From: Pimelobacter simplex
Lineage (GTDB): Bacteria; Actinomycetota; Actinomycetes; Propionibacteriales; Nocardioidaceae
Assembly (NCBI GenBank): GCA_016803235.1
Contig: JADCLI010000022.1
Span: 21,015-85,014, forward strand
DNA: 64,000 nt
Direction: 5' to 3'
Below the pieces are notes generated by a model. The model ran no database searches. It was given only the letters and a program-made list of their open reading frames with translations, and was not told the DNA's origin. The position numbers and the translations under genes are program-made. This document shows, in pieces, positions 45,383 through 51,445 of the stretch; position 1 is the first letter of the stretch; each line of letters starts with the position of its first letter.

Positions 45383-46009
45383 ATGAGCGACGACAACCGA
45401 CCCCGCACCTTCGACGACCGGGTACGACGCGAGCTGCTCCAGCAGCGCGTGCTGGTGCTCGACGGCCCCCTCGACGACGACAACGGCATGCTGCTGACCA
45501 GCCAGCTGGTGGCGCTCGCCGCGGACGACCCCGGCGCCGACATCGCGCTGTGGATCCACTCGCCCGGCGGATCCGTGCCGGCGATGCTCGCTATCCGCGA
45601 CGTCATGCGCCTGGTGCCGTGCGACGTGGCGACGCTGGCGCTCGGCATCGCCTGCAGCGCCGGGCAGTTCCTGCTCTCCTCGGGGACCCGCGGCAAGCGC
45701 CGGGCGCTCCCCCACGCGCGGGTCCTCATGCACCAGGGCTCGGCCGGCATCGGCGGCACCGCGGTCGACATCGAGCTGCAGGCACAGGACCTGCGCCAGA
45801 CGCGCGACACGGTGCTCGCGCTGATCGCCGAGGACACCGGGCAGCCGCTGGAACGGGTCTTCGAGGACTCGCTGCACGACCGGTGGTACTCCGCCCAGCA
45901 GGCACTGGAGTACGGCTTCGTCGACGAGATCGTCGCGTCGTACGACGTCCTGGTGCCCCCGCGCCGCGCGCCCCTGGGGCTGGGCAGCCTCGCGGGGGTG
46001 GCCCGATGA
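45383..46009 (+). CDS. ClpP protease subunit, catalytically complete
   Basis: ClpP-family peptidase of 208 residues with an intact triad: Ser92 (GIACSAGQFLL), His117 (HARVLMHQG), Asp166 (HDRWYSAQQA). It would form the proteolytic chamber of a Clp complex with an unfoldase such as ClpX or ClpC. ATG at 45383. It is translationally coupled to a second ClpP (ATGA overlap). With no clpX or tig next to it, the pair resembles the accessory clpP3-clpP4 operon of Streptomyces rather than the essential clpP1P2. Confidence 0.88.
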   Translation: MSDDNRPRTFDDRVRRELLQQRVLVLDGPLDDDNGMLLTSQLVALAADDPGADIALWIHSPGGSVPAMLAIRDVMRLVPCDVATLALGIACSAGQFLLSSGTRGKRRALPHARVLMHQGSAGIGGTAVDIELQAQDLRQTRDTVLALIAEDTGQPLERVFEDSLHDRWYSAQQALEYGFVDEIVASYDVLVPPRRAPLGLGSLAGVAR

Positions 46010-46632
46010 GCAGCTACCTGGTGCCCAATGTGATCATGCAGCACCCGCGCGGCGAGCGGATCATGGACGTCTACTCACACCTGCTCACCGAGCGGGTGGT
46101 CTACCTCGGCACCGCGATCGACGCCGGTGTCGCCAACTCCCTCGTGGCCCAGCTGCTGCACCTCGAGGCCGACAACCCGGACCGCGACATCCAGCTCTAC
46201 ATCAACTGCGAGGGCGGCGACCCGAGCGCGATGCTGGCCGTGCACGACACGATGCAGTTCATCCGACCGCAGGTCGCGACCACCTGCATCGGGCAGGCGA
46301 TCGCGGTCGGCGCGGTGCTGCTGGCCTCGGGCGCCGCCGGCAAGCGCTCCGCGCTCCCCCACGCCCGGGTGGTGCTGCACCAGCCGGCCGCCCAGGGCCG
46401 CGGCGCCATCCCGGACCTGATCCTGCAGGCCGACGAGGTGGTGCGGGTGCGTGCCGACATCGAGCAGATCCTGTCGCGGCACACAGGGCAGGACACCGCC
46501 ACGCTGCGCGCCGACACCGACCACGACCGGGTCTTCACCGCCTCGGGGGCGCGGGAGTACGGCCTGATCGACCACGTGATCGAGGAGCGTGGCCCCGCGG
46601 TCGTTGCTCAGGCGGCGAGCGCCAGGGCGTAG
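46006..46632 (+). CDS. ClpP-like subunit lacking the catalytic serine
   Basis: ClpP-family protein of 208 residues, coupled to the active ClpP by a 4-base overlap. The nucleophile position is Ala100 (GCG codon at 46303-46305): the segment reads TTCIGQAIAVGAVLLASG where active ClpPs have Ser. His125 (ARVVLHQPA) and Asp174 (HDRVFTASGA) are kept, and the rest is well conserved. It is therefore predicted to be a structural, non-proteolytic partner like ClpR of plastids and cyanobacteria. The frame is intact, so it is not a decaying gene. Confidence 0.88.
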   Translation: MSSYLVPNVIMQHPRGERIMDVYSHLLTERVVYLGTAIDAGVANSLVAQLLHLEADNPDRDIQLYINCEGGDPSAMLAVHDTMQFIRPQVATTCIGQAIAVGAVLLASGAAGKRSALPHARVVLHQPAAQGRGAIPDLILQADEVVRVRADIEQILSRHTGQDTATLRADTDHDRVFTASGAREYGLIDHVIEERGPAVVAQAASARA

Positions 46633-46913
46633 GAACCGCCGACCTCGACGGGGACGGCGAGCGGCCGGAGGTCGCCGGCGACGGAGGTGGTGAGGTCGAG
46701 CAGGGTCGTGCCGAGGGCCCCGAGCACCGCCGCGATCATCTCGCTGCTCGGCTCCTTGACGCCACGCTCGATCTCGGAGAGGTACTGCGGCGAGATGCCG
46801 GCCCGGCCCGCGGTCTCGGTCAGCGTCTCGCCGCGCTCCCGGCGCAGGTCACGCAGTCGTCGCCCCACCAGGTCCCGCCACAGCGGCTCCGCCCCGTTCC
46901 GATCCTCGGCCAT
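46608..46913 (-). CDS. Small XRE regulator of ClgR/PopR type
   Basis: Protein of 101 residues with one XRE helix-turn-helix (about 13-72: RLRDLRRERGETLTETAGRA, then QYLSEIERGVKEPSSEM), very like ClgR/PopR, the activators of clp genes in Streptomyces and Corynebacterium. It ends LALAA; in Streptomyces, as I recall, the final Ala-Ala of these regulators is needed for their breakdown by ClpP. It converges with and overlaps the second clpP by 25 bases. TACGAT five bases before the ATG suggests leaderless expression. Confidence 0.82.
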   Translation of the reverse strand: MAEDRNGAEPLWRDLVGRRLRDLRRERGETLTETAGRAGISPQYLSEIERGVKEPSSEMIAAVLGALGTTLLDLTTSVAGDLRPLAVPVEVGGSYALALAA

Positions 46914-48198: not shown

Positions 48199-48774
48199 TC
48201 AGGAACGGAGGTCGAGGACCGCCCGGACCCGGGTGGCCCCGGAGGTCAGCCACAGCTCGTCGACCTCGACGGGCAGCCCGAGCGCCTCGAACCGGCCGTC
48301 GGGTGCGGTACGGACCGCGCGCCGCAGGGCGCCCTTCGCCAGGAATGCGAGGTCGACGCCGGCGACACCGGGTGGCTGCAGGACCAGGCCCTCGACGTCG
48401 ACCTCACCGGCGCGGGCCGGCATCGCATCGACGACGAAGCGGCCCAGGTCGCTCTCGAAGGCCAGGTGCACGCCGCCCGACCTCGCACGGTCGCGGGCGT
48501 CGTGCAGCAGTGTGGCGTCGCACCAGTCCCGACCGGCCCGGGGGCGGTGCAGGCGGTCGAAGATGCCGCGCAACCGGCCGCCGAGCTCGGGCGGGGGCTG
48601 CTCGAGCGGCATGGAGACGGCTCCGTCGACGAACCCGAGGATCCACTCGACGCTCTCGAGGGTCTGCGGGTCGCCCTCGGCGACGTACGACGCCACGGCC
48701 TCGGCCTCGTCGACGTCCAGGCGGCCGTCGAGCCAGTCGACGAGCTCGGTGAAGCTGGGCCGGACGGTCGTCAC
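48199..48774 (-). CDS. Probable partner (anti-sigma-like) of the second ECF sigma factor
   Basis: Protein of 191 residues starting GTG at 48774, overlapping the sigma stop by 4 bases. The N-terminal part (TVRPSFTELVDWLDGRLDVDEAEAV) has the acidic helical pattern of anti-sigma domains, but the zinc-binding His/Cys set and a membrane span are missing. The C-terminal half is a beta-rich region without a family I recognise. The partner role is inferred from coupling with the sigma gene. Confidence 0.55.
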   Translation of the reverse strand: MTTVRPSFTELVDWLDGRLDVDEAEAVASYVAEGDPQTLESVEWILGFVDGAVSMPLEQPPPELGGRLRGIFDRLHRPRAGRDWCDATLLHDARDRARSGGVHLAFESDLGRFVVDAMPARAGEVDVEGLVLQPPGVAGVDLAFLAKGALRRAVRTAPDGRFEALGLPVEVDELWLTSGATRVRAVLDLRS

Positions 48775-49397
48775 GCCTCCGCCCCCATGATCATCCGCAG
48801 CTCCTCGAGACAGCTGCCGCGCAGGGGGCCGATCGCCCCGGCCGGGCGGCCGAAGCGTGGCGCGAGCGCCGCGTGGCTCGGGACCTTCCTCTCGAAGTAG
48901 AGGGCGAGGAGGAGCTCGCGGCTCGTGCCGCCGAGCACAGCGAGGGCGTCGTGCAGCGCCGTCGTGGTCTCCCAGTCGTCGAAGGGGTCGGTGGCGGGCT
49001 CGCCGGCGACGTCGAGCGGTGTGTTCGGCCCCTTCTGGTTGCGGCTGCTCCAGGTCCGCCGGCGAGCCACGGTCATCAGCCACGACGCGAGCCGCTCGTC
49101 GTCCGGCAGCCGGTCGAGGGCGTCGGCGAGGGCCACGAACGTCGCGTGCGCGACGTCCGCGGCATCCTCGGCGCCGAGGCCGCCGCGCCGGGCCACGGTG
49201 TAGACGAGCCGCTCGTAGCGGCTCACCAGCTCGGCCCAGGCCTCCGGGTCGCGGCGGCGGCATCTCCGCAGGAGGTCGGCATCGGTGACCACCGCCTCAC
49301 CGCGCCCGTCCCCACGGCGCGGTGCGGCGGCGGTCTCGATCCGGCCCACGTGCTCCAAGGTCGCGACGCGCGTCAGGCCCTCGCTCAAAGACGTCAT
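48771..49397 (-). CDS. ECF-family sigma factor
   Basis: Sigma factor of 208 residues. Region 2: DAWAELVSRY-like segment (RRDPEAWAELVSRYERLVYT), then AEDAADVAHATFVALADAL and RLASWLMTVARRR. Region 4 is less typical: LGGTSRELLLALYFERKVPS, PRFGRPAGAIGPLRGSCLEE. Start ATG at 49397 with GGGGGA upstream; the frame is open further back to 49559 and GTG starts downstream are possible. Coupled to its probable partner gene. Confidence 0.75.
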   Translation of the reverse strand: MTSLSEGLTRVATLEHVGRIETAAAPRRGDGRGEAVVTDADLLRRCRRRDPEAWAELVSRYERLVYTVARRGGLGAEDAADVAHATFVALADALDRLPDDERLASWLMTVARRRTWSSRNQKGPNTPLDVAGEPATDPFDDWETTTALHDALAVLGGTSRELLLALYFERKVPSHAALAPRFGRPAGAIGPLRGSCLEELRMIMGAEA

Positions 49398-49935
49398 GCG
49401 GTCCCCCAGGACATGAAGGAACGCCCGGGCACGTTCCGGCGATGAGAAGCCAAGGCCGCCGTCCTGGGCCGTCCGCCCTGACGAGGAGTCATCGAGCGGG
49501 AGGGCCGGTGATGGCCTCGGGTGCGTTCGACGATAGGCGGCAGATCCCGGCGTCCACAAGCGATTCCGGAAGGCCGGGACCGGCCTGGCGCGGCCCTGGC
49601 GGGCGCGACGGGGGCCACGGCCTCGCTAGCATCACGTCCCGACGTCGGCGCTCCTGCCCGACGCTCGCCGGGCCTCCACGACAGCTCGCGGGCCACCCCA
49701 GGGACGCAGGTCACTCCCCCGCGAACCGGCACCGCGGTCCGACGCGCCGGCAGGCACGTCGTCCGGGAACGCCGGCCGTCGGCGCGACGGCCGTCCTTGC
49801 CAGGTCGGAGTCGCCAGTTGCCCCAATGGCATTCCGAAAATTGCCAGGATGTGACAGCCTCGAAGGCAAGTCTCGGGCCCCACCCATGCACCACCGGTCG
49901 ACGAACGTCGGTCGGACACCACCAGGAGATCCCGA
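49398..49935. other. Intergenic region between the ECF sigma gene and the small peptide gene
   Basis: 538 bases without a convincing gene. On the minus strand TATCGT (49535-49530) could be a -10 for the sigma operon with a leader of about 130 bases. On the plus strand the part before the peptide gene holds an AT-richer stretch (around 49825-49850) with the small palindrome TGCC-CCAAT-GGCA. Frames on both strands have no credible start or family. Confidence 0.4.
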
Positions 49936-50061
49936 ATGAAGACTCGCAAGCTCCTCGCCGCCACCGCCGCCGCCCTCGCCGCCACCCTTGCGGCGACCCT
50001 GGGCGCACCGTCGACGGGCCCGTCGGTCGTGCTCGCCGACCGTCCGTCCGGCTGCTGCTAG
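49936..50061 (+). CDS. Small secreted peptide of 41 residues ending in Cys-Cys
   Basis: ATG at 49936 is preceded by AGGAG (49924-49928) at a 7-base distance. The product has a basic start (MKTRK), an Ala/Leu-rich hydrophobic segment (about 6-23), then LGAPSTGPSVVLADRPSGCC to the end: a signal peptide plus a mature tail of perhaps 15-20 residues with a Cys pair. It faces an HTH-TPR regulator gene, with only 7 bases between the two stops. The layout recalls peptide-pheromone/receptor pairs (RNPP type). No homologue is recognised. Confidence 0.6.
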   Translation: MKTRKLLAATAAALAATLAATLGAPSTGPSVVLADRPSGCC

Positions 50062-50068
50062 CAGTCGC

Positions 50069-51445
50069 CTAGACCGTCTCCCCCGACCGGGACCTCCGGC
50101 GACTCCGGCCGCGCAGCCGGAGCCCGCTGGCATTCGCCGCCGCCTTGAAGGCACGGTGTGCGCCCTCGGCATCCCCCAACCCGTCCAGCAGCTCGGCAAG
50201 CTCGCACCAGGCCTGCGCCACCCACCGGTCGGTGCCCTCGAGAGCGGCCAGGAAGCTCGCCGCCTCGCCGCAGACGGCGACCGCCTCCTCGTCGCGACCG
50301 AGCTCGGCCAGCGCCTCGGCATGCGCGAGCGCCGCTTCTGCGGCACCGAGAGGGGACAGCTCGGGGTTGGCGGCCCGGGCCGTCGCGGCGACCTCGAGTG
50401 CCCGCTCGGGGCGGCCGTCCACCACCAGCGCGCGGGCCATCAGGACCTGGGCCTGCGCGATCTCGACGAGCGATGCACTGGTGCCGCGCAGCTCGTCGTT
50501 CGCTCGCTCGAGCTGGTCGAGCGCGGCCACCGGGTCCGGCCCCTCGAGCTGGAGCTGGAGCCGGCCGAGCTCGAGGCGGAGCCGGGCGAGGTTGCGGGCG
50601 TCCTGGCCCTCCCCGAGCAGGGCGAGCGCCCGTGTGGCGAGGGTGAGGGCGGACTGGGTCTCCCCGCGCTCGGAGTAGGCGATGCTCGCGTTCCAGTACG
50701 CCGCGCTGCGGGCGACCGGCGAGGCCATCTCCTCGGCGAGCTCGATCGTCTCGGTGCAGATCAGGGTGGCCCGGCTGAGGTCACCACGCTCGATGTGCGC
50801 GAGTGCCACGGTCATCGCGAGCTGGACGGCCTCGTCGGTGCGCTCGAGACCGCTCTCGACGATGTCCGGACGGATCCGGTCGCCGACCTCGATGGCGAGG
50901 GCGAGGTCTCCCGCCTCGCGGTAGCAGCGGCTCAGCGCGATGCCGCACCTGATCGCCGCCAGGCCGCCGACGTCGGCGAGCAGCGACTCGAGCTCGCGGA
51001 TGGCGTCGTCCAGCTGGCCCATCGTCTCCAGCGAGCGGGCCACGACGAAGCGTCCGCGGGTGGTCAGGTCGGCGAGCGAGGCCCCCTCGGCGCGGGCGAG
51101 CGCGGCCCGGGCCTGGTGCTCGGCGTCGAGCGCCTCGCCGTTCTCGAGGGCGAGCTCGGCGTAGCTCAGGGCCAGCCGGATCTCGTCGACCTCCTCCGCG
51201 GAGGCGCCGGTCAGCAGCTCCACCACCGGCAGTCCCAGCCGCTCACTGAGCGCGGTGAGCGCGGCCAGGGTCGGGCGCCGGCTCCCGGACTCGATGCGCG
51301 ACACGTAGCCCACGGAGCAGGCGTCCCCGGCCAGGGCGGCCTGGTTCATGCCGAGCGCGCGTCGGGCCGCGCGCACGCGAGAACCGAGGACGACGGGGTC
51401 GACCGTCCTCAGCAGCTCCTCGCTCCGCGTGTCGACGTGACTCAT
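50069..51445 (-). CDS. XRE-HTH regulator with TPR repeats
   Basis: Protein of 458 residues. The N-terminal helix-turn-helix (about 17-80: LGSRVRAARRALGMNQAALA, CSVGYVSRIESGSRRPTLAA) is followed by TPR-type helical repeats to the end, as in RNPP peptide receptors and in many actinobacterial regulators. No membrane part. ATG at 51445 is preceded by TAGCCT and eight bases, so it may be leaderless. The tail-to-tail small secreted-peptide gene is a candidate ligand source. Confidence 0.8.
   Translation of the reverse strand: MSHVDTRSEELLRTVDPVVLGSRVRAARRALGMNQAALAGDACSVGYVSRIESGSRRPTLAALTALSERLGLPVVELLTGASAEEVDEIRLALSYAELALENGEALDAEHQARAALARAEGASLADLTTRGRFVVARSLETMGQLDDAIRELESLLADVGGLAAIRCGIALSRCYREAGDLALAIEVGDRIRPDIVESGLERTDEAVQLAMTVALAHIERGDLSRATLICTETIELAEEMASPVARSAAYWNASIAYSERGETQSALTLATRALALLGEGQDARNLARLRLELGRLQLQLEGPDPVAALDQLERANDELRGTSASLVEIAQAQVLMARALVVDGRPERALEVAATARAANPELSPLGAAEAALAHAEALAELGRDEEAVAVCGEAASFLAALEGTDRWVAQAWCELAELLDGLGDAEGAHRAFKAAANASGLRLRGRSRRRSRSGETV

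Follow-up and report, generated by a model that had tools for sequence, protein, structure and literature searches.

A Cys-Cys-ended peptide gene beside a PlcR-like XRE-TPR regulator in Pimelobacter simplex and other Actinomycetota: a candidate peptide-signaling pair

Peptide communication in which a gene-encoded signal is read by a cytoplasmic HTH-TPR receptor has been described for Bacillota. In the Bacillus cereus group, the gene for PlcR, an XRE-HTH regulator with TPR repeats, lies beside that for the small propeptide PapR, and the same arrangement is found at the locus analyzed here. The locus likewise resembles the Rgg-SHP and ComR-ComS systems of streptococci, each of which couples an HTH-TPR-type regulator to a small peptide partner. 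According to the introduction of a large RRNPP survey (PMC10075063), the signals typical of Actinomycetota are small molecules, and the sections of the same survey available to us give Firmicutes and viruses as the only groups searched (PMC10075063). Among the titles and abstract openings of the open-licence literature, we found no description of such pairs in Actinomycetota. The present study describes a pair of this kind in Pimelobacter simplex, located in a stretch of 64,000 nucleotides (the window) that includes the following features.

49841-49869, no strand assigned: conserved inverted repeat resembling an operator, TTGCCA-N17-aGGCAA, placed 66 bases ahead of the peptide gene's ATG
49924-49928, plus strand: ribosome binding site AGGAG, 7 bases from the ATG
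49936-50061, plus strand: propeptide gene, 41 aa, MKTRKLLAATAAALAATLAATLGAPSTGPSVVLADRPSGCC
51445-50069, minus strand: gene for an XRE-HTH and TPR regulator of 458 aa, the presumed receptor (Pfam HTH_3 and TPR_12)

The two genes stand tail to tail across a gap of 7 bases (50062-50068), and the sequence bears out the initial annotation, which had described a 41-residue ORF with a signal peptide and the ending DRPSGCC facing an XRE-HTH/TPR gene at this distance. The propeptide has a basic N terminus, a hydrophobic core, and a C-terminal Cys-Cys; its signal was judged from charge, hydrophobicity, and the AxA motif, without SignalP. Signal peptidase is likely to cut between VLA and DRPSGCC, as read by eye from a (V/I)xA motif, and in the clade of the window a cut at this motif, also placed by eye, leaves seven residues. 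Neither the window's peptide nor the relatives' peptides submitted had a Pfam or NCBIfam match over the cut-off. Within the 64-kb window, this ORF is the only match to a filter for 26-75 aa, a hydrophobic N-terminal part, and CC in the last four residues. The same filter returned one match in 290,860 bases lying off the pairs in the loci of 35 relatives, nearly all of the same family, and this lone match is a genuine peptide belonging to a regulator array.

The regulator matches HTH_3 at E 1.5e-10 and TPR_12 at E 4.1e-07 (30.5 bits, against a cut-off of 30.1). Its nearest named relatives, at 74-78% identity, are found in Nocardioides sp. SLBN-35, N. albidus, N. carbamazepini, and Nocardioides sp. 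LHD-245, by which the window's genus is taken here as Nocardioides. In a search of the same genome for other full-length copies, only the match in the window, out of 40 weak ones, spanned model positions 1-42. When a profile of the regulator family was compared with the PDB, PlcR was the top natural match over HTH plus TPR among the matches listed, with E 1.8e-13 over positions 14-240 and, for a wider profile, 3.2e-14 over 2-230; the alignment covers the HTH and the first half of the TPR region, and designed TPR proteins outscore PlcR on the repeats. RNPP/RRNPP systems are recognized by an N-terminal XRE-type HTH followed by TPR repeats in a receptor of 250-500 aa (the size rule as given in the available text of PMC10075063), by an adjacent small propeptide gene with a Sec signal, and by sequence kinship beyond the HTH. 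The pair in the window has all of these, the signal being read from charge, hydrophobicity, and AxA and the kinship from the PlcR alignment.

Outside cellular genomes, seven IMG/VR loci matched the regulator, in each case only over short segments of the HTH region (within residues 15-81). An unverified and unannotated "Bacteriophage sp." record from human feces (MT836207.1, our locus L294) ends within a gene for a 47% identical regulator and may be a bacterial contig. In-frame stops in regulators of the family coded f20 were considered and rejected, as in the three such loci read (L180, L181, and L188) the profile extends beyond the natural stop.

The pair recurs well beyond P. simplex. A regulator homolog at E <= 1e-30 is present in 100 of 215 genomes of the genus. 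The loci compared contain 125 regulator ORFs, 124 of them with a stop; beside 90 of these 124, a convergent downstream ORF combines a hydrophobic start with a final Cys-Cys. When signal-like small ORFs of any ending were compared by position in the same loci, the CC end was found in 102 of 118 that were convergent and downstream, vs. 5 of 58 elsewhere. Profile searches were then extended to overlapping samples of the family (76 of 245 genomes matching at E <= 1e-40), the class (68 of 394, same threshold), and the phylum (40 of 396 at E <= 1e-25). Of 234 regulators, the final survey kept the 217 that were complete and had 400 or more bases on either side; the other 17 were dropped for truncation or short flanks. 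All 29 non-genus matches in the family were retrieved; outside the family, the survey took in regulators from 38 of 79 class-search matches and 28 of 49 phylum-search matches, so that shares per family there are based on a subset of the matches. A peptide with CC in its last four residues lies beside 149 of the 217 complete regulators: 107 are convergent, 36 divergent, 5 upstream on the same strand, and 1 downstream on the same strand. In these counts the L265 peptide is entered twice, once for each of two regulators, and the second regulator of L254, labeled divergent, has a convergent peptide of its own as well. The CC is exactly terminal in 137 of the 149, and the remaining 12 tails extend one or two residues past it.

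CC peptides occur in nine family codes, three of which (f12, f24, and f30) contribute one example each. Within the class these are f1, f12 (1/1), f17 (4/4), f23 (12/12), f24 (1/1), f29 (3/4), f30 (1/1), and f41 (3/5); outside it, f51 has the peptide beside 2 of 6 regulators. Single further cases were seen beside a plasmid regulator of Streptomyces goshikiensis, where the neighbor is a 71-aa ORF annotated as hypothetical, and beside a Nonomuraea regulator. No CC peptide was found beside the regulators examined in f20 (0/5), f22 (0/7), f40 (0/2), f57 (0/5), f74 (0/1), f88 (0/6), or f92 (0/2). Across the survey, 57 of the 217 complete regulators have no recognizable peptide, including 22 of 123 in the genus (the window's own excluded), 9 of 27 among the family's other members, and all those examined in f20, f22, and f40; some of the 57 stand in arrays with one peptide, and most do not. 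The initial annotation had named absence or frameshifting of the small ORF beside close orthologs as grounds against the pair; the ORF is kept beside all 10 of the closest regulators (72-100% identity, window included). Its proposal of an RNPP-type signaling pair gains support from the recurrence beyond the genus and from PlcR as top natural PDB match, and the Cys pair to which it drew attention proves to be the conserved feature of the peptides.

Several variants of this arrangement were observed. Two to four regulator paralogs form tandem arrays in L135, L137, L140, and L265, with one CC peptide gene at the array end in L135 and L137, one between two regulators in L265, and none seen in L140. 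In one clade of the same family (L260, L261, L266, L267, and L273), the peptide gene lies upstream on the same strand and the peptides end in CCR, CCRR, or CCK. Beside 11 of the 217 regulators there is instead a short peptide with Trp near its end, a class set up after inspection, so that the count is descriptive; these are divergent in L300-L302, L304, L305, L307, L310, and L318 and on the same strand in L313, L314, and L320. These very short, secreted-looking peptides come from other classes of the phylum and have Trp near the end (FPWGGT, NWPHH, and SWPDGN), often as Trp-Pro; two more, in L316 and L319, contain CC (PFPGCCG and PWPHCC). In f22, the loci L315, L321, L322, L324, and L325 have a divergent signal-like small ORF with a common AA(N/A)(A/I)GP stretch and no CC, possibly a further branch. 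In a tree of 164 regulators (thinned from 217, actinobacterial family only), the peptide labels follow clades, with 42 changes vs. a shuffled mean of 78.6 and 0 of 200 shuffles as low, a grouping to be expected of near relatives anyway.

The peptides are constant at their end and variable before it. Of 158 distinct peptides that carry CC at or near the end, it is exactly terminal in 146; 81 of these 146 have Trp directly before it (related peptides not thinned), and AxA occurs at residues 17-38 in 111, a motif that Ala-rich cores can produce by chance. The final hexamers take 99 different forms among the CC peptides, those of the genus including RPSGCC, RTGWCC, RNVWCC, GDSWCC, and DPYWCC. The predicted mature parts, with a median of 16 aa after the first AxA and 7 aa by eye in the window's peptide, vary apart from the CC end. 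In 17 close peptide-gene pairs sharing no locus, differences outside the last six codons number 53/40/121 at codon positions 1/2/3, a third-position bias that, on this comparison of sequences, shows coding constraint; the last six codons, at 9/12/11, have no such bias. Between species, the last six codons hold 15 nonsynonymous and 6 synonymous differences, vs. 73 and 90 in the rest (p 0.035), which may point, if weakly, to diversification just before the invariant CC. Ten loci (L047, L056, L062, L063, L068, L071, L076, L080, L125, and L129) have two or three tandem peptide genes, and the last six residues are nearly constant inside each locus; the copies differ at 3 of 96 positions there vs. 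42 of 583 elsewhere, a difference that is not significant (p 0.18).

Distances between tails are correlated with those between TPR domains (Spearman 0.200, a value reached in 0 of 500 permutations, independent pairs being few). Because leader distance correlates equally with TPR distance (0.191), this needs no more than shared ancestry. Among the results listed, a Mantel test and independent-pair tests on the columns with the strongest enrichment for Trp at -3 showed nothing past ancestry.

A second conserved element lies upstream of the peptide gene. Alignment of 10 close loci left a footprint of TTGCCA-N17-TGGCAA-like DNA before it, and a pattern derived from this site (at most three mismatches) has one match in each of 8 of those 10 genomes, always before the peptide gene, while a reversed control pattern has none in the 8 genomes searched. 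TTGCCA precedes 46 of 79 nonredundant peptide genes at convergent loci, mostly of the genus, vs. 8.0 expected. Compared with shuffled sequence, the palindrome TTGNCAA is found 66 times before convergent peptide genes in 89 sequences (4.2 shuffled), 11 times before the regulators of convergent pairs (3.0), and 7 times between divergent pairs (0.8); it was not found inside the genes, and two control palindromes were not enriched (1 vs. 2.6 and 1 vs. 2.2). This enrichment before the peptide genes suggests that the signal may be autoregulated. Some copies of the element may be promoter -35 boxes, which TTGACA-like hexamers resemble.

Little else is shared around the pair. In 40 neighborhoods, the window included, the regulator cluster is present in 39 and is the only protein cluster present in most, and a CC peptide lies beside the regulator in 35 (loci matched to the survey). 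The next clusters occur in nine and six loci, some from close genomes, and by eye comprise PAS/GGDEF-type and response-regulator proteins. Across the 40, no importer, protease, modifying enzyme, export, or immunity gene is conserved beside the pair, and neighbors as parts of the system were rejected on the ground that most neighborhoods share the regulator alone. In the window, two further genes precede the pair.

48771-49397, minus strand: gene for an ECF-type sigma factor, 208 aa (Sigma70_r2, E 1.3e-09)
48199-48774, minus strand: gene for a protein of 191 aa that matches no Pfam family over cut-off; the gene overlaps the sigma gene's end

The sigma gene is back to back with the peptide gene and transcribed away from it in the window, L214, L216, and L217, and is not beside the pair in L215. 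A gene for a protein of about 200 aa follows it in all four contexts; in L214, L216, and L217, but not in the window, this is followed in turn by a longer protein, with a CHAT domain in both proteins tested (L214 and L217). Where tested, the longer protein is TPR-CHAT, and the module of sigma factor, about 200-aa protein, and, in the relatives, longer protein is found next to the pair in at least two genomic contexts. The ECF sigma gene is a plausible candidate for a further target in this subclade. Elsewhere in the window (45383-46913), two adjacent genes appear by eye to be ClpP-like, and a small XRE gene on the other strand overlaps the end of the second, an arrangement resembling the known ClgR-clp one.

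Collectively, these data probably describe the precursor of a pheromone together with the cytoplasmic receptor that reads it, a system operating in the manner of RNPP/PlcR in Bacillota. This reading is drawn from the match of the regulator profile to PlcR; eight oligopeptide-binding proteins (SBP_bac_5) over the cut-off in the same genome add weak evidence for it, as the family is common. On the established ground of the genes, their linkage, the conserved tail, and the conserved upstream element, we infer export, processing, import, binding, and a direction of regulation that would run as follows. Sec would export the precursor, which signal peptidase would cut, here probably to the heptapeptide DRPSGCC. 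The peptide would re-enter the cell, probably via an oligopeptide permease, and bind the TPR groove of the XRE-TPR regulator, altering how the latter holds the palindromic TTGNCAA-type sites upstream of the peptide gene and creating a potential feedback loop, with the neighboring ECF sigma factor perhaps an additional target in this subclade. The Cys-Cys would be the end by which the signal is recognized, perhaps in the form of a vicinal disulfide.

An unlikely alternative, which overlaps this reading, is that the signal is a modified peptide, e.g., lipidated or crosslinked at the Cys pair by an enzyme encoded elsewhere. Certain other proteins and peptides carry modifications at a C-terminal Cys-Cys or at Trp, and the Cys-Cys end and the Trp often before it (81 of 146) would suit such chemistry; however, an enzyme gene is not conserved beside the pair in the 40 neighborhoods, and 12 of 149 tails go one or two residues past the CC. 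We consider it quite unlikely that the peptide serves as a secreted effector with an antimicrobial, metal-binding, or cell-envelope redox function, its gene simply being controlled by a regulator whose TPR domain senses something else. A small, apparently secreted peptide with a Cys-Cys end would fit this role, the upstream element is compatible with control by the regulator, and tandem copies could increase dose, but the predicted mature parts are short and variable except for the CC end, the 40 neighborhoods keep no export, immunity, or modification gene, and the partner comes from a single HTH-TPR family, the closest natural PDB protein to which is PlcR, itself a peptide receptor. That a small hydrophobic peptide adjoins an XRE protein also recalls type I or II toxin-antitoxin pairs with an XRE antitoxin, a highly improbable reading given AxA at residues 17-38 in 111 of 146 peptides with a tail beyond the hydrophobic core, a partner of 458 aa with TPR repeats, and four different gene orders. 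The chance of a random ORF beside an ordinary regulator is negligible even in high-G+C DNA, where spurious ORFs abound, as the background is about nil, 149 of 217 regulators are linked to a peptide, and there is third-position bias outside the tail.

If the peptides are pheromones read by their neighboring receptors, a wider picture can tentatively be drawn, in which we place low confidence: Actinomycetota may have their own widespread PlcR-like family of peptide communication, whose pheromones end in a vicinal Cys-Cys that might cycle between a disulfide ring outside the cell and a dithiol inside, so that the receptor would read both cell density and redox state, the Trp-Pro tails of other classes (e.g., NWPHH and PWPHCC) representing deeper branches of the family. 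The chemical signature, fixed in nine family codes, would allow such signals to be found in any genome, and the pair would supply synthetic peptides for testing on strains that attract broad interest for their development and metabolite production.

Compared with PlcR-PapR, the present pair occurs in Actinomycetota, and its receptor has 458 aa vs. 293 in the PlcR PDB chain; the pairs described here may be convergent, divergent, or co-directional, and their signal ends in Cys-Cys. ComR, by comparison, matches the family profile over the HTH only, and the NsdA family TPR-like regulators (NCBIfam NF053720) give a weak TPR match (E 9.6e-07, 28.6 bits) far under the 75-bit cut-off. To our knowledge, neither SHP nor ComS peptides end in Cys-Cys. 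PapR7, given as ADLPFEF in the portion of PMC6568020 available to us, likewise lacks this end. The pair would be a Cys-Cys-ended variant of the RNPP/PlcR-like pheromone-receptor pair and an apparently undescribed kind of cell-to-cell signal.
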